Shown here: positions 5,126 through 40,285 of the stretch, in pieces
Numbering within the stretch: the first letter of the stretch is position 1
Layout: every line of letters starts with the position of its first letter
Assembly (NCBI RefSeq): GCF_002813455.1
Contig: NZ_PHHE01000001.1
Location: forward strand, 5,142,001-5,206,000
Length of the DNA stretch: 64,000 nucleotides
Direction: 5' to 3'
Source: Pseudomonas baetica
Lineage (GTDB): Bacteria > Pseudomonadota > Gammaproteobacteria > Pseudomonadales > Pseudomonadaceae
Notes under the pieces: model-generated
Database searches by the model: none
Seen by the model: the letters and a program-made list of their open reading frames with translations, nothing else
What the model was told of the DNA's origin: nothing
Translations under genes and position numbers: made by a program

Positions 5126-5203
5126 TTCGCGAGCAGGCTCGCTCCCACACTGGTTTTGTGTTCGACACAGATCAAATGTGGGAGCGAGCCTGCTCGCGAA
5201 GAG
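5126..5203. repeat. REP pair, outward-facing arrangement
   Basis: Two REP copies in the order opposite to most others here: a reverse copy (TTCGCGAGCAGGCTCGCTCC) comes first and the forward copy ends at about 5203. The spacer is about 30 nt and lacks the CTGACACAC pairing. It lies between convergent genes. Confidence 0.88.
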
Positions 5204-6249: not shown

Positions 6250-6320
6250 CTTTCGCGAGCAAGCCCGCTCCCACAGGTGAACGCATTCCAACGGTGGGAG
6301 CGGGCTTGGTCGCGAAAGGG
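6250..6320. repeat. REP pair upstream of the SPOUT methylase
   Basis: Reverse copy (TTTCGCGAGCAAGCCCGCTC) then forward copy (GTGGGAGCGGGCTTGGTCGC, one base off consensus), with a spacer of about 18 nt. It lies between two leftward genes. Confidence 0.85.
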
Positions 6321-30662: not shown

Positions 30663-31623
30663 GCAGAACCGCCCGCTGTGGGACGGCCCGATCATCGATG
30701 CCCATCATCACTTCTGGGATCCGGCGATCAACGATCACCCATGGCTCGCGCCCGAGGCCAACATCCCGTTTCGCTATGGCGATTACAGCGCGATCAAGCG
30801 CCGCTATTTTCCCGAGGATTACTTCGCCGACGCGGCGCAGCACCAGGTGGTGCAGACCGTCTACATCGAGACCGAATGGAACCCGCAGGATCCGATCGGC
30901 GAGACCCGTTTCATCGAACAACTGGCCGCCCGTTATGGCGTGCCGAACGCGGTGGTGGCCCAGGCCTGGCTCGATCATCCGGACGCCATCGATGTGCTCA
31001 CCGAGCAGGCGCGTTTCAAGCATGTGCGCAGCGTGCGGCACAAACCCGGCGGGCCGACGTCACCCGCGCAAGTCGGGCGTTCGCGCAGCCTGATGAGCGA
31101 CGAGCACTGGCGGCGCAGTTACGCCGCACTGCAAGGTTTGGGGCTGCACTTCGATTTGCAGACACCGTGGTGGAACCTGCCGGAAGCCGAGCGACTGGCC
31201 CGGGATTTCCCCGGCACTGCGCTGATTCTCAACCACGCCGGCCTGCCCAGCGACCGCAGTGCCGAAGGTTTGGCCGGTTGGCGCAAGGCCATGGCGCGAC
31301 TGGCCGAGTACCCGAACGTGCAGGTGAAGATTTCCGGCCTCGGTCAGGCTGGCCGCGCGTGGCGGGCCATCGACAACGCGTGGATCGTGCGCGAGATCAT
31401 CGCCATGTTCGGCAGCACGCGAGCGATGTTCGCCAGCAACTTCCCGGTCGACAGCCTGTGCGGCTCGTTCGACAGCATTTACAGCGGTTTCAAACACATC
31501 GTCGCCGATCTGCCACGGGCCGATCAGCAATGTCTGTTCTATAGCAACGCGCAGCGGGTCTACCGCTGCGAACCTGGTGTCCTTGAGCGCGCCGGGTCTG
31601 AGCCTTTGAGGAGTCAAGCATGA
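30655..31623 (+). CDS. Amidohydrolase family protein, probable sugar lactonase
   Basis: A 322-aa TIM-barrel hydrolase of the amidohydrolase-2 group. The metal motif HxH is H17-x-H19 (IIDAHHHFWDP), with a later strand LILNHAGLP and the terminal aspartate in FASNFPVDSL. This lineage includes L-fuconolactone and L-rhamnonolactone hydrolases, so I infer opening of an aldonolactone to the acid used by the dehydratase in the next operon. The ATG at 30655 lies inside the MFS gene end; its stop overlaps the PdxA start (ATGA), so translation is coupled. Other ring-opening activities are possible. Confidence 0.82.
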   Translation: MTEQNRPLWDGPIIDAHHHFWDPAINDHPWLAPEANIPFRYGDYSAIKRRYFPEDYFADAAQHQVVQTVYIETEWNPQDPIGETRFIEQLAARYGVPNAVVAQAWLDHPDAIDVLTEQARFKHVRSVRHKPGGPTSPAQVGRSRSLMSDEHWRRSYAALQGLGLHFDLQTPWWNLPEAERLARDFPGTALILNHAGLPSDRSAEGLAGWRKAMARLAEYPNVQVKISGLGQAGRAWRAIDNAWIVREIIAMFGSTRAMFASNFPVDSLCGSFDSIYSGFKHIVADLPRADQQCLFYSNAQRVYRCEPGVLERAGSEPLRSQA

Positions 31624-32624
31624 ACAAAACCACGATCGCCATGGTCCTCGGTGACCCAGCGGGTATTGGCCCGGAACTGATTGCGCGGTTGCTCGGCGAG
31701 CCCGCGGTGCGCAGTCAGGCGCAGGTGATTCTGATCGCCGATGAAGCCGAGATGCAGCGCGGCATGCGCATCGCCGGCGTGACGTTTCCCTACCGCCGGA
31801 TCGAGTCGCTGGAACACCTGGATTTTGCCGATGACACGCCACTGTTCTACAACGTTCGCGGCGATACCGTGGGCGAGTTTCCCCGCAGCGAAGCCAGCGC
31901 CATCGGCGGCCGTTACAGCCTCGATACGCTGGAAATCGCCCTGCGCCTGACCCAGGCGGGCACCACCGATGCGGTGCTGTTCGGGCCGCTGAACAAAACC
32001 TCGCTGCACATGGCCGGCATGGCCCACAGCGACGAGTTGCACTGGTTCGCCGAACTGTTGGATTTCCACGGGCCGTTCTGCGAATTCAACGTCCTCGATA
32101 ACCTGTGGACGTCGCGGGTGACGTCACACGTGGCGCTGGCCGATGTGCCGGGGCTGCTCAGCCAGGAGCGGGTGGGCGAGGCGATCCGCCTGATCGACAC
32201 CGCGCTTAAACGCAACGGCCTGGAGAAACCGCGCATTGGTGTGTGTGGCCTCAACCCGCACAACGGCGACAACGGCTCGTTCGGCCGTGAAGAACTCGAC
32301 ATCATCAGCCCGGCAGTGCGCACCGCTCAGGCTCAAGGCATCGCGGCGGAAGGGCCGTATCCCGGCGACACGATTTTCCTCAAGGTGCAGGGCGATGCCA
32401 GCGCATTTGATGCGGTGGTCACCATGTATCACGACCAGGGCCAGATCGCGATCAAGCTGATGGGCTTCTCCCGTGGCGTGACGGTGCAGGGCGGTCTGCC
32501 GATCCCGATCACCACCCCGGCCCATGGCACCGCGTTTGATATTGCGGGGCAGGGCAAGGCCAACGTCGGGGCGATTCGCCAGGCGTTCGAAATTGCCTGC
32601 CGGATGGGCGCCAACAGCTACTGA
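31620..32624 (+). CDS. PdxA-like 4-phosphohydroxy-acid dehydrogenase (PdxA2 group)
   Basis: A 334-aa NAD-dependent metal enzyme of the PdxA fold. The divalent-metal histidines are kept: VTSH, LNPHNG and MYHDQG. The substrate-phosphate loop differs from true PdxA, reading MAHSDELHWF where 4-hydroxythreonine-phosphate dehydrogenase has GHTE. PdxA2 paralogues usually act on phosphorylated C4 sugar acids made by a DUF1537 kinase, but no such kinase is in this window. It is therefore probably catabolic rather than a pyridoxal-synthesis gene. It ends the operon; the tandem REP array begins 33 bp after its stop. Confidence 0.85.
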   Translation: MNKTTIAMVLGDPAGIGPELIARLLGEPAVRSQAQVILIADEAEMQRGMRIAGVTFPYRRIESLEHLDFADDTPLFYNVRGDTVGEFPRSEASAIGGRYSLDTLEIALRLTQAGTTDAVLFGPLNKTSLHMAGMAHSDELHWFAELLDFHGPFCEFNVLDNLWTSRVTSHVALADVPGLLSQERVGEAIRLIDTALKRNGLEKPRIGVCGLNPHNGDNGSFGREELDIISPAVRTAQAQGIAAEGPYPGDTIFLKVQGDASAFDAVVTMYHDQGQIAIKLMGFSRGVTVQGGLPIPITTPAHGTAFDIAGQGKANVGAIRQAFEIACRMGANSY

Positions 32625-32656
32625 TCTGCGCTCTTCAGAACAACATCACTTCTTCT

Positions 32657-34775
32657 GTGGGAGCGGGCTTGCTCGCGAAAGCGGTGGATCAGACGGCATC
32701 AATGTCGACTGACACACCCTCTTCGCGAGCAGGCTCGCTCCCACTTTTGTTTTGTGTGTGGCAAATAATTCAATCTGCCAGGAGATGGCTTTTTCCCGTA
32801 TCCAGAACAACGTCAAATTACCCCTGTGGGAGCGGGCTTGCTCGCGAAAGCGGTGGGTCAGGCGGCATCAATGTCGACTGACACACCCTCTTCGCGAGCA
32901 GGCTCGCTCCCACTTTTGTTTTGTGTGTGGCAAATAATTCAATCTGCCAGGAGATGGCTTTTTCCCGTATCCAGAACAACGTCACATTCCCCCGGTGGGA
33001 GCGAGCCTGCTCGCGAAAGCGGTGGGTCAGACGGCATCAATGTCGACTGACACACCCTCTTCGCGAGCAGGCTCGCTCCCACTTTTGTTTTGTGTGTGGC
33101 AAATAATTCAATCTGCCAGGAGATGGCTTTTTCCCGTATCCAGAACAACGTCACATTCCCCCGGTGGGAGCGAGCCTGCTCGCGAAAGCGGTGGGTCAGA
33201 CGGCATCAATGTCGACTGACACACCCTCTTCGCGAGCAGGCTCGCTCCCACTTTTGTTTTGTGTGTGGCAAATAATTCAATCTGCCAGGAGATGGCTTTT
33301 TCCCGTATCCAGAACAACATCACATCTCCTGTGGGAGCGGGCTTGCTCGCGAAAGCGGTGTGTCAGACGACATCAATGTCGACTGACACACCCTCTTCGC
33401 GAGCAGGCTCGCTCTCACTTTTGTTTTGTGTGTGGCAAATAATTCAATCGGCCTGGAGATGGCTTTTTTCCGTATCCAGAACAACGTCACATTACCCCCG
33501 GTGGGAGCGAGCCTGCTCGCGAAAGCGGTGGGTCAGAGGGCATCAATGTCGACTGACACACCCTCTTCGCGAGCAGGCTCGCTCCCACTTTTGTTTTGTG
33601 TGTGGCAAATAATTCAATCTGCCAGGAGATGGCTTTTTCCCGTATCCAGAACAACGTCACATTACCCCCGGTGGGAGCGAGCCTGCTCGCGAAAGCGGTG
33701 GGTCAGAGGGCATCAATGTCGACTGACACACCCTCTTCGCGAGCAGGCTCGCTCCCACTTTTGTTTTGTGTGTGGCAAATAATTCAATCTGCCAGGAGAT
33801 GGCTTTTTCCCGTATCCAGAACAACGTCACATTCCCCCGGTGGGAGCGGGCTTGCTCGCGAAAGCGGTGGGTCAGACGGCATCAATGTCGACTGACACAC
33901 CCTCTTCGCGAGCAGGCTCGCTCCCACTTTTGTTTTGTGTGTGGCAAATAATTCAATCGGCCTGGAGATGGCTTTTTCCCGTATCCAGAACAACGTCACA
34001 TTCCCCCTGTGGGAGCGGGCTTGCTCGCGAAAGCGGTGTGTCAGACGACATCAATGTCGACTGACACACCCTCTTCGCGAGCAGGCCCGCTCTCACTTTT
34101 GTTTTGTGTGTGGCAAATAATTCAATCGGCCTGGAGATGGCTTTTTTCCGTATCCAGAACAACGTCACATTACCCCCGGTGGGAGCGAGCCTGCTCGCGA
34201 ATGCAGTGGGTCAGATGGCATCAATGTCGACTGACACACCCTCTTCGCGAGCAGGCTCGCTCCCACTTTTGTTTTGTGTGTGGCAAATAATTCAATCTGC
34301 CAGGAGATGGCTTTTTCCCGTATCCAGAACAACGTCACATTCCCCCCGGTCGGAGCGAGCCTGCTCGCGAAAGCGGTGGGTCAGAGGGCATCAATGTCGA
34401 CTGACACACCCTCTTCGCGAGCAGGCTCGCTCCCACTTTTGTTTTGTGTGTGGCAAATAATTCAATCTGCCAGGAGATGGCTTTTTCCCGTATCCAGAAC
34501 AACGTCACATTCCCCCTGTGGGAGCGGGCTTGCTCGCGAAAGCGGTGTGTCAGACGACATCAATGTCGACTGACACACCCTCTTCGCGAGCAGGCCCGCT
34601 CTCACTTTTGTTTTGTGTGTGGCAAATAATTCAATCGGCCTGGAGATGGCTTTTTTCCGTATCCAGAACAACGTCACATTACCCCCGGTGGGAGCGAGCC
34701 TGCTCGCGAAAGCGGTGGGCCAGATGGCATCAATGTCGACTGACACACCCTCTTCGCGAGCAGGCTCGCTCCCAC
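32657..34775. repeat. Tandem array of 13 REP-pair units
   Basis: Thirteen units starting at 32657, 32826, 32995, 33164, 33331, 33501, 33671, 33840, 34009, 34179, 34349, 34518 and 34688 (period 167-170 bp; the last ends at its right arm). Each has a left REP arm (GTGGGAGCG...), a conserved core ATCAATGTCGACTGACACAC, a right arm (...GCTCGCTCCCAC) and an about 80-nt spacer with AAATAATTCAATCTGCC and TATCCAGAACAACGTCAC. Two spacer types alternate irregularly (CTGCCAGG versus CGGCCTGG), and units 9-10 closely match 12-13, showing block duplication. No credible gene lies inside; open frames recur only because the sequence repeats. Confidence 0.95.
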
Positions 34776-34838
34776 ATTTTTTTGTGTGCAGCCCTGATAA
34801 CCCTATTTGCCTATAAATCACTTGATGCGATCACCGCA

Positions 34839-34873
34839 GGTTATCGCCGGATACGCATAAGTGATTATCCGGC
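34839..34873. promoter_or_regulatory. Operator candidate upstream of the second operon
   Basis: GGTTATCGC (34839-34847) overlaps a perfect inverted repeat GCCGGATA (34846-34853) / TATCCGGC (34866-34873) with a 12-nt spacer, about 120 bp before the MFS start at 34995. The GGTTATCGC core matches the elements at 29071 and 29231. Confidence 0.5.
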
Positions 34874-34994
34874 AGCCCTTCGCGCTGGCTACAGTCGCTC
34901 CATCGACTGAACGCCTGTTCAGGCGCCCAACAACTACAAAAAGCCCGCCCTGTCACTTCCGCAGGGCACATACCGGCAGCAAAGGAACCTTCAC

Positions 34995-36320
34995 ATGACC
35001 CGTCCAGATTCCGCCCTGGCTCTGTCCAGTGCCATCGCCAAAAGCCGGCTGCGCCTGCTGCCGTTTCTGATCCTGATGTACATCCTCGCCTTTATCGACC
35101 GCTCCAACGTCGGCTTCGCCAAAGCGGCGCTGCAGGCCGATACCGGGCTGGGGGATGCGGCGTTCGCCTTCGGCGCGAGCATCTTTTTCATCGGTTACGC
35201 GTTCTTCGAAGTGCCGAGCAACTACATGCTCCATCGCCTCGGCGCCAAGGTCTGGCTGTGCCGGATCATGGTCACCTGGGGCCTGGTCTCGGCGGCGATG
35301 ATGTTTGCCCACAACGCCGAAACCTTCTACGTCCTGCGCTTCATGCTCGGTGTGGCCGAAGCCGGTTTCTTCCCGGGCATCATTCTTTACCTCACCTACT
35401 GGTTCCCGGCGCAGAGTCGTGGTCAGGCGCTCGGGCTGTTCTATTTCGGCCTGCCGCTGGCGCTGGTACTGGGCAGCCCGTTGTCCGGCTGGTTGCTGGA
35501 CTTCCATGGCGTATTCGGCCTGACCAACTGGCAGTGGCTGTTCGTCGTCGAAGGCTTGATGGCCTCGGTGGTGGGCATCGCCGCGTACTTCTATCTGGTC
35601 AACCGTCCGGCCCAGGCGACATGGTTGAGTGCCGAAGAAAAGCAGGCGCTGCAAACGGCGCTCGATGAAGAAGACGCGAAGAAAAAAGACTCCAGCCCCC
35701 ACGGTTTTCTGAGTGCCTTGCGCAACCCGCGAGTGCTGCAATTCTGCCTGGCGTATTTCACCATTCAGATGAGTGTTTACGGCGTGGTGTTCTACCTGCC
35801 GACGCGCATTGCCGGGTTGCTCGACGGTCATGTCGGTTTGAACGTCGGCCTGATCACGGCGATCCCGTGGATCTGCGCGCTGATCGTCACCCGCATCGTC
35901 ACTCGTTACGCCGACCGCACCGGCCAGCACCGCCGCCTCGCCGTGTGCATGTTGACCATGGCCGCCCTTGGCATCGCGGCGTCGGCCTTGGGTACCAGCA
36001 TGGTGCCGGTGGTGCTCGCCTTCTGCTTCGCGGCCGCCGGATTCGTTTCGGTGCAGCCACTGTTCTGGACCATTCCCACCAGTTACCTCAGTGGTGCTGC
36101 CGCCGCTGGCGGGATCGCCCTGATCAACTCCATCGGCAACCTCGGCGGCTTCGTCGCGCCGAACCTGAAAACCGTGATGGAAACCTCGTTTGCCGACCCC
36201 CGTGCCGGGATGTTTGCCCTGGCTTTGGTCGGCCTCGTTGGCGCCGTCCTGTTGTCCCGACTTCGCACCACGCAAACCCCTGTTTCTCCCTCGCAGCTCA
36301 CACCGGCTCAGGTTGGCTGA
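34995..36320 (+). CDS. MFS transporter (anion:cation symporter family), second operon
   Basis: A 441-aa major facilitator, twelve membrane segments. Opening text ILMYILAFIDRSNVGFAKAA, the helix-4 region FMLGVAEAGFFPGIILYLTY and WFPAQSRGQALGLFY are characteristic of the ACS family (tartrate, phthalate, galactonate type). Start at the ATG at 34995. It leads the operon MFS-dehydratase-AraD1-aldehyde dehydrogenase with gaps of 33, 55 and 24 bp. It probably brings in the same or a related aldonate as the other carrier; why the island has two MFS carriers and a TctABC system is unclear. Confidence 0.88.
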   Translation: MTRPDSALALSSAIAKSRLRLLPFLILMYILAFIDRSNVGFAKAALQADTGLGDAAFAFGASIFFIGYAFFEVPSNYMLHRLGAKVWLCRIMVTWGLVSAAMMFAHNAETFYVLRFMLGVAEAGFFPGIILYLTYWFPAQSRGQALGLFYFGLPLALVLGSPLSGWLLDFHGVFGLTNWQWLFVVEGLMASVVGIAAYFYLVNRPAQATWLSAEEKQALQTALDEEDAKKKDSSPHGFLSALRNPRVLQFCLAYFTIQMSVYGVVFYLPTRIAGLLDGHVGLNVGLITAIPWICALIVTRIVTRYADRTGQHRRLAVCMLTMAALGIAASALGTSMVPVVLAFCFAAAGFVSVQPLFWTIPTSYLSGAAAAGGIALINSIGNLGGFVAPNLKTVMETSFADPRAGMFALALVGLVGAVLLSRLRTTQTPVSPSQLTPAQVG

Positions 36321-36353: not shown

Positions 36354-37529
36354 ATGAAAATCAAAGCGATCCGTACCCGCGTCTTCGAATGGAAAGGCAA
36401 AGTCGTGCCACCACAGGCGCACTTTTGCACCAACGCCAGTGACATTCTCTTCGAGCGTGGCGATGCCATGGGCTCGTTCCGTTTCCACGGCTGGCTGGTG
36501 GTGGAAATCGAAACCGACACCGGTCTGGTCGGCATCGGCAACTGCGCCCTGGCACCGCGTGTGGCCAAGGAAATCATTGACACCTATCTGGCGCCGATTG
36601 CGATCGGCGAGGACCCGTTCGACAACGAGTACATCTGGCAGAAGATGTACCGACAGAGCCACGCCTGGGGCCGTAAAGGCATCGGCATGGCGGCGATCTC
36701 GGCCATCGACATCGCCATCTGGGACATCATGGGCAAAGCAGTGAACAAGCCGGTGTTCAAACTGCTCGGTGGGCGCACCAAGGAAAAGATCTGGACCTAC
36801 GCCTCCAAGCTCTACGCCAATGACAACCTCGACCTGTTTCTTGAAGAGGCGCAGGGCTATCTGAACCAGGGTTTCACCGCGCTGAAAATGCGCTTCGGCT
36901 ACGGCCCGAAAGACGGCCCGGCCGGCATGCGCAAAAACATCGAGCAAGTGCGCGCCCTGCGTGAACTGGCCGGCCCCGACGTCGACATCATGCTCGAGTG
37001 CTACATGGGCTGGACCCTCGAATACGCCCGCCGGATGCTACCGAAACTGGCCGAGTTCGAACCGCGCTGGCTGGAAGAACCGGTGATCGCCGACGACATC
37101 GAAGGCTACATCGAGCTGAAAAAAATGGGCATCATGCCGATCTCCGGCGGTGAGCATGAATTCACTTCTTACGGCTTCAAGGACTTGCTCGAACGTCGCG
37201 CCATCGACGTCATCCAGTACGACACCAACCGCGTCGGCGGCATCACCGCCGCGCGCAAGATCAACGCCATGGCCGAAGCGTGGTCGGTGCCGGTGATCCC
37301 CCACGCCGGGCAGATGCACAATTACCACCTGACCATGTCCACCACGGCCTCGCCGATGGCCGAGTTCTTTCCGGTGTTCGACGTCGAGGTCGGCAACGAA
37401 CTCTTCTACTACGTGTTCAAGGGCGAGCCGCAACCGGTCAACGGCTATATCCAGCTCGACGACCACAAGCCGGGCCTGGGCCTGGAAATCTCCGATGAGT
37501 ATTTGAGCGACTTCAACATCATCGAATGA
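36354..37529 (+). CDS. Enolase-superfamily sugar-acid dehydratase (rhamnonate-dehydratase-like)
   Basis: A 391-aa TIM-barrel enzyme of the mandelate-racemase subgroup. Acid ligands for Mg lie in [21 protein letters not shown] and [12 protein letters not shown]; the general base pair is His in [12 protein letters not shown] and Asp in [20 protein letters not shown] is like that of L-rhamnonate dehydratases. It should dehydrate an aldonate to its 2-keto-3-deoxy form. Operon partners that produce and oxidise 2-oxoglutarate semialdehyde favour a C5 acid. From memory, an L-lyxonate dehydratase was reported in P. aeruginosa in a like cluster; I could not check that. Starts at 36354 after AAGGAACC. 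Confidence 0.85.
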
Positions 37530-40209: not shown

Positions 40210-40285
40210 TTCGCGGGCAAGCCCGCTCCCACAGGGATCTATGTTGCTGCACAGATCCAGTGTGGGAGCGGGCTTGCCCGCGAAG
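40210..40285. repeat. REP pair, GCGGGCAAGCCCGC variant
   Basis: Reverse copy TTCGCGGGCAAGCCCGCTCC then forward copy GTGGGAGCGGGCTTGCCCGC ending near 40285, spacer about 30 nt. This CCGC-ended variant is shared only with the single half at 17463. It separates two convergent genes. Confidence 0.88.

Follow-up and report, generated by a model that had tools for sequence, protein, structure and literature searches.

The intergenic region between a PdxA-like gene and a gene for an MFS transporter, both on the + strand, carries a tandem array of 13 units, which extends from position 32636 to 34788 of the window, i.e. the whole 64-kb stretch of DNA that was analysed. Each unit is composed of a REPIN with its own flanking DNA, in the order f1, REPIN, f2. 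Judged from its sequence and from that of its orthologs, the array is a tandem REPIN cluster, in which a REPIN probably placed by a RAYT transposase would have captured its flanks and been expanded by repeat instability, and in which the REPIN and the adjoining T-tract probably form the 3' end of the pdxA-like transcript. The locus provides a clear before-and-after case of the birth of such a cluster, the single-copy orthologs suggesting which flanks were captured.

Structure of the array and of its REPINs

Tandem Repeats Finder detected one array in the window, with a period of 169 bp, 12.7 copies and 95% matches. Splitting on the left REP arm yielded 13 units of 167-170 bp, which start at positions 32660, 32829, 32998, 33167, 33334, 33504, 33674, 33843, 34012, 34182, 34352, 34521 and 34691 and are thus spaced by 169, 169, 169, 167, 170, 170, 169, 169, 170, 170, 169 and 170 bp. 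Both approaches confirm the 13 units with a 167-170-bp period reported in a preliminary description of this DNA. As was also stated there, it is the whole unit, REP and spacer, that was amplified and not the REP alone, and none of the REPs elsewhere in the window is in tandem. The array is 2.15 kb long, and chance was ruled out by inspection (13 copies, 95% identity).

All features of the locus are on the + strand. The PdxA-like gene (31620..32624; it scores 255.8 bits, the pdxA cut-off being 290.35) ends 32 nt before the first hairpin and is followed by a single-copy left flank (32636..32656), which is homologous to the f1 of the internal units (CAGAACAAC...) and is also present in the relative L131. 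Next come the REPIN hairpin of unit 1 (32657..32744), the f2 of this unit (32745..32801), comprised of the T-tract and of 42 nt colinear with a conserved block found 3' of the REPIN in relatives, and the f1 of unit 2 (32802..32825), a copy of the 5' flank. The hairpins of units 2-12 start at 32826, 32995, 33164, 33331, 33501, 33671, 33840, 34009, 34179, 34349 and 34518, and copies of f2 stand after units 1-12. The hairpin of the last unit, unit 13 (34688..34775), is followed by a T-tract (34776..34784) and by the conserved block (34796..34845, or to 34870 with CATAAGTGATTA), which has a GATAACC...GGTTATC dyad, lies in the upstream region of the downstream operon and is not broken by the array. 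The MFS transporter gene (34995..36320; no model above its cut-off) is the first gene of that operon.

Every unit contains one REPIN of 82 bp (between the outer arm bases). The left arm is GTGGGAGCGGGCTTGCTCGCGAA or GTGGGAGCGAGCCTGCTCGCGAA and the right arm has the second of these forms, GTGGGAGCGAGCCTGCTCGCGAA, except that the left arm of unit 11 has one base of its own and that the right arms of units 5, 9 and 12 are altered; bar this base of unit 11, all left arms are identical to PF9 or PF10 as given in Table 1 of Nunvar 2013. The inverted REPs of all 13 units form one hairpin each, with RNA folding energies of -64.8 to -74.6 kcal/mol, which bears out the 13 strong hairpins predicted earlier for read-through RNA; DNA folding of four of the 13 gave z-scores of -9.8 to -11.5. 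Arms of the PF9/PF10 class have a high copy number in the genome (801 forward and 779 reverse with at most one mismatch; 0 for the reversed-pattern control), and REPs of the class adjoin both of the two RAYT genes scoring above the NF047646 cut-off, the pairing of this REP class with a cognate RAYT being read from adjacency. Since similar REPINs are scattered in the same genome (up to 94% over 93 nt), we do not claim orthology between the REPIN loop of the array and the loops found in relatives. The window also contains REP pairs in a reverse arrangement, with the right arm first and the left arm 44-54 bp on (5127-5199, 6253-6315 and 40211-40283), unlike its nine isolated ordinary REPINs.

A coding role was rejected, the long frames across the array being by-products of the repeat without support, and a comparison of the window with Rfam, made at gathering thresholds, yielded no hit.

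Variation and probable exchange among units

Unit 9 has the same sequence as unit 12, units 3/4 and units 6/7 differ at the unit junction only, and unit 1 is the most diverged. Unit 5 (33334..33503) belongs to a type with GTGTGTCAGACGAC and CGGCCTGG, and units 9 and 12 (34012-34181 and 34521-34690) are of the same type. The left part and the spacer had been described as switching together, which holds for units 5, 9 and 12, but the linkage is incomplete because unit 8 has only the spacer half of the type. Similarly, units 9-10 had been matched with units 12-13: units 9 and 12 agree fully, but units 10 and 13 share one marker and differ at others. A second-order period of 509 bp, proposed on this basis, was not upheld. 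It reflects one event only, a single exact run of 238 bp at offset 509 (33964-34201), and offset 169 has a longer run, of 287 bp. In permutations of the unit order lag 3 did not stand out (fraction 0.0625), lag 4 having the lower value of 0.004 as one of six lags tested.

Among 12 informative two-state sites in units 1-12, all four combinations of states occur in 17 of 66 site pairs, and variants were therefore probably exchanged among units, as had been suggested, barring two independent origins of one and the same change. As read from the units, the history of the array is one of block duplications and exchange, with no second period. The alternative that most of the array is an assembly artefact, the true locus having one or a few units, draws on the near identity of the units and on a length of 2.15 kb that exceeds short reads. 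We consider it very improbable in view of the ordered private and shared variants of the units, of a genome assembled as a single contig of 6.90 Mb, and of several other arrays of different units that were resolved in the same assembly.

The same site in related species

Orthologous sites were collected through the PdxA-like proteins of named genomes (of 80 loci retained, the 31 Pseudomonas-named ones, L026-L054, L063 and L089, were used and the 49 others not), from 57 genomes of relatives (PdxA-like protein match in four, own genome included), and through the conserved block in 398 genomes of the genus. The block matched in 41 of the latter including the own genome; 30 of these 41 were taken as loci, the own locus L128 being left out, and 11 were not. 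From the resulting 64 entries, three without a pdxA hit (L146, L149 and L153) and eight in which the block was missing or the contig cut (L030, L038, L039, L040, L050, L052, L053 and L063) were dropped. The 53 left included nine identical duplicates, which gave 44 distinct intergenic sites, i.e. the window and 43 relatives; the gene end in L151 was extrapolated from a partial hit. The genome collections compared hold one genome per species.

The distance from the gene to the ATAAGTGATTA motif is 2231 bp in the window versus 154-581 bp in the other stretches. At least one palindrome arm of four classes (PF9/PF10-like, PF3-like, PF13-like and PF20-like, at most two mismatches) is present at the site in 35 of the 43 relatives (36 of 44 with the window), while those of L129 and L157 are PF4-like by eye. 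No arm of the four classes was found in eight relatives (L025, L041, L044, L046-L049 and L051), of which L041 and L044 have other strong hairpins at the site. Exactly one arm pair in REPIN order occurs in 25 of the 43 relatives (e.g. L023, L033 and L137), and at least two regularly spaced REPINs were found in the window (13), in L031 and its duplicate L147 (four), in L036 (four), and in L136, L138 and L143 (two each). The four-REPIN arrays of L031 and L036 (133 bp) have spacers unlike those of the window, and expansion at this same site therefore happened more than once. The spacers of L031, L036, L138 and L143 are partly alike by eye, that of the window being different, and these four may derive from one older duplication. 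REPINs of mixed class were seen in L026, L031, L035, L138 and L143; the four-REPIN array of L031 (L031:7003-7583) has REPINs with a PF3-like left arm and a PF10-like right arm.

The conserved block (34796-34870, with its dyad and CATAAGTGATTA), present in the 41 of 398 genus genomes mentioned above, is likely an operator or promoter of the downstream operon. An MFS gene follows it only in some species (L033, L034 and L129-L133, versus L023, L026 and L027); in other species, such as L023, the block stands directly before the start of a dehydratase gene, which is located at 36354 in the window.

An array of this anatomy, resembling the BIME-2 of E. coli, in which gyrase cleaves the tandem REPs in living cells (PMC6379681, PMC2817692), might by analogy be a gyrase or topology element between co-oriented operons, with the number of repeats setting the strength of binding. 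We regard such a role as unlikely, most relatives having one REPIN at the same site. Binding of IHF, also proposed for the array, found no support: region 32625-34994 has no exact consensus site and one site with one mismatch, against a mean of 1.9 in base shuffles, whereas the IHF-binding BIME-1 or RIB elements have an IHF site between the REPs.

Origin of the spacer

When the 82-nt spacer was searched in the 398 genus genomes, it was found 12 times in the own genome, and outside it only as a single 31-nt match of 87% in G372, around which no pdxA-like or related context was seen; on the strength of this search, a source at another locus was rejected. The own right flank was rejected too, its match to the spacer being no better than shuffles (725 of 1000 plain base shuffles as good).

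Many relatives have a T-tract after their last REPIN, with GATAAC...CTATCACCCCAGGTTATCG next in line, and in the alignment the unit spacer is colinear with this post-REPIN stretch. The 42-nt core of the spacer scores 32, 31, 29 and 29 against L155, L027, L043 and L129, with 14-15 +- 3 for base shuffles, none of 300 shuffles being as good in these four of the 43 relatives (best 32 versus 14.5 +- 2.8). Against seven further relatives 2-8 of 300 shuffles were as good, and against 32 of the 43 there was no clear excess, at least 29 of 300 plain base shuffles being as good. The closing portion of the spacer (CAGAACAAC...) has its match in the left flank, both in the window and in L131. Because the spacer matches both the 3' block and the left flank, f1-REPIN-f2 is the most fitting description of the amplified unit, an arrangement depicted in Figure S7 of Bertels & Rainey 2011 (PMC3116915). 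The spacer looks like an ancestral 3' flank, comprising the T-tract and half of the conserved promoter block, that was joined to the 5' flank. The new detail is that the array 'spacer' does not look like unrelated DNA, as its counterparts appear to survive in some relatives; the junction of the first duplication can be placed approximately, not to the base. A CRISPR array, which has unique spacers, was rejected as well, the spacers of the array being near-identical to each other and resembling the flank of the locus in relatives.

The series of events that we propose would have begun with a RAYT transposase placing a REPIN 3' of the PdxA-like gene, where a REPIN of the PF9/PF10 class now stands between the stop codon, about 32 nt away, and an immediately adjacent T-tract. 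A first duplication would have brought f2 next to f1, a few bases at most being shared at the join, and unequal homologous recombination or slippage would then have led to 13 units, with variants becoming mixed among them.

Tandem arrays in the genome and the genus

More than ten other tandem REP or REPIN arrays are present in the same genome, among them 190 bp x 7.0 copies (at 764 kb), 217 x 5.0 (826 kb), 144 x 4.8 (4.69 Mb), 134 x 2.9 and 134 x 5.6 flanking a RAYT gene (1.50 Mb), 69 x 15.9 (4.95 Mb), 69 x 12.5 (5.26 Mb), 102 x 4.4 (5.30 Mb), 134 x 5.8 (5.82 Mb), 198 x 10.0 (6.23 Mb) and 134 x 11.2 (6.53 Mb). Within the set of own-genome arrays found with the same exact patterns, the array of the window has the most full REPINs (13 versus 11 and 10). 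Across the genus, same-direction arm pairs 110-170 bp apart were found in 140 of 398 genomes, own included, with up to 319 per genome and 0 in every genome row of the reversed-pattern control; not every such pair is a duplicated REPIN, and the count is confined to this arm class and to assembled sequence, without the gaps of drafts. Neither in its genome nor in its genus does the array stand out.

A REPIN unit of 134 bp with one spacer forms arrays at three places, at 1.50 Mb around the RAYT gene, at 1.69 Mb and at 6.53 Mb (L111:1233-2951, L112:1069-1317 and L121:1646-3090; 81-95% identity to the query unit, the query itself aside), and the array or the flanked unit therefore moved between loci. 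The single-REP 69-bp arrays (L115:706-1801 and L116:1211-2070, with 15.9 and 12.5 copies) are of a tandem type unlike the REPIN arrays.

T-tract and likely role at the 3' end of the pdxA-like transcript

A T-tract, defined as at least six T in the 8-nt window just after the hairpin, follows 23 of the 25 REPINs scored at the site (the window counts among the 23; L028 and L089 lack it), compared with 4 of 52 control flanks (Fisher p about 2e-13, a value that overstates the evidence because the species are related and the counts not independent). The 25 scored are the stretches with a last REPIN that fitted one search pattern, and the controls are the 52 flanks of 26 isolated REPINs elsewhere; three of the four control flanks with a T-tract belong to three of the nine isolated REPINs of the window itself. 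In the array, a GC-rich hairpin is followed immediately by 7 T in 8 nt in 13/13 units, as in an intrinsic terminator, while for the seven other arrays of the genome in which REPINs could be recognised and scored the count was 6 T in one (where the T-tract begins several bases further on) and no more than 5 in the others. When a hairpin with a T-tract was sought in 41 of the 44 stretches (the window was deliberately set aside, L031 and L036 were too long), 36 of 41 reached -15 kcal/mol or lower versus 76 of 410 shuffles, and 29 of 41 reached -50 kcal/mol or lower versus none of 410 (lowest shuffle -40.9), the latter line having been set after seeing the data; the folded stretch of up to 100 nt may contain more than one hairpin. 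A simple consensus terminator scan, which ignores long imperfect stems, gave one site in the region versus 2.8 in shuffles. Stems as long as those of the array's REPINs are not classical intrinsic terminators. We propose that the REPIN hairpin and the T-tract would act through termination and/or through protection from 3' exonucleases.

As hairpin and T-tract are kept in 13/13 units, a 3'-end role of the REPIN is likely, i.e. the REPIN likely helps to form the 3' end of the pdxA-like operon; we claim no novelty in print for a terminator role of REPINs. In other species, palindromes of other classes would fill the same role at this site. Since a single REPIN serves in most relatives, selection probably did not act on the copy number of 13 as such; the 12 additional units are probably neutral and most likely by-products of repeat instability. 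More speculatively, the conserved T-tract may repeatedly be served by any mobile palindrome of the host (PF9/10, PF3, PF13, PF20 and others), as an interchangeable terminator that would here have been multiplied 13-fold into a barrier in front of the downstream operon. If the terminator reading is true, the spread of RAYT-associated mobile DNA would be tied to a host function at transcript 3' ends.

A purely selfish or neutral repeat, where a REPIN landed by chance and was amplified with no role in transcription, is a serious contender, although we do not favour it. Tandem arrays are common in the genome and in the genus (the 140 of 398 genomes), the seven other arrays scored have no adjoining T-tract of such strength, and the number of REPINs at the site varies by species (13, 4, 4, 2, 2, 2 or mostly 1), all of which agrees with neutrality, but a palindrome arm of interchangeable class at the site in 35 of 43 relatives and a T-tract that mostly follows the scored site REPINs and not the control REPINs argue for a function. 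Since this alternative keeps the origin part of the preferred reading and denies the function only, the probabilities of the two overlap.

Comparison with known systems

Tandem REPIN clusters that include flanking DNA were described in P. fluorescens SBW25 by Bertels & Rainey 2011 (PMC3116915), and the array of the window has the same head-to-tail units with flanking DNA. The largest ordered REPIN cluster described there is composed of four REPINs and one REP and exceeds 700 bp, and tandem arrays of 12 single REPs were reported too; compared with these ordered clusters, the window has 13 REPINs over 2.15 kb and a different REP class (PF9/PF10). Large clusters of GTAG REPs, likewise with flanking DNA, were covered in the general survey of Di Nocera 2013 (PMC3733652), to which the present locus contributes a series of orthologs that show the single-copy state, together with a probable source of the spacer. 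For E. coli and S. maltophilia, REPs have been described as influencing mRNA stability as well as Rho-dependent termination. With intrinsic terminators the array shares a GC-rich hairpin and 7 T in 8 nt at an operon 3' end, 13 times over, but its hairpin is far longer than the classical one and is known here from sequence. With the BIME-2 of E. coli it shares tandem REP pairs between genes, whereas the REP sequences differ and gyrase cleavage is known for BIME-2.
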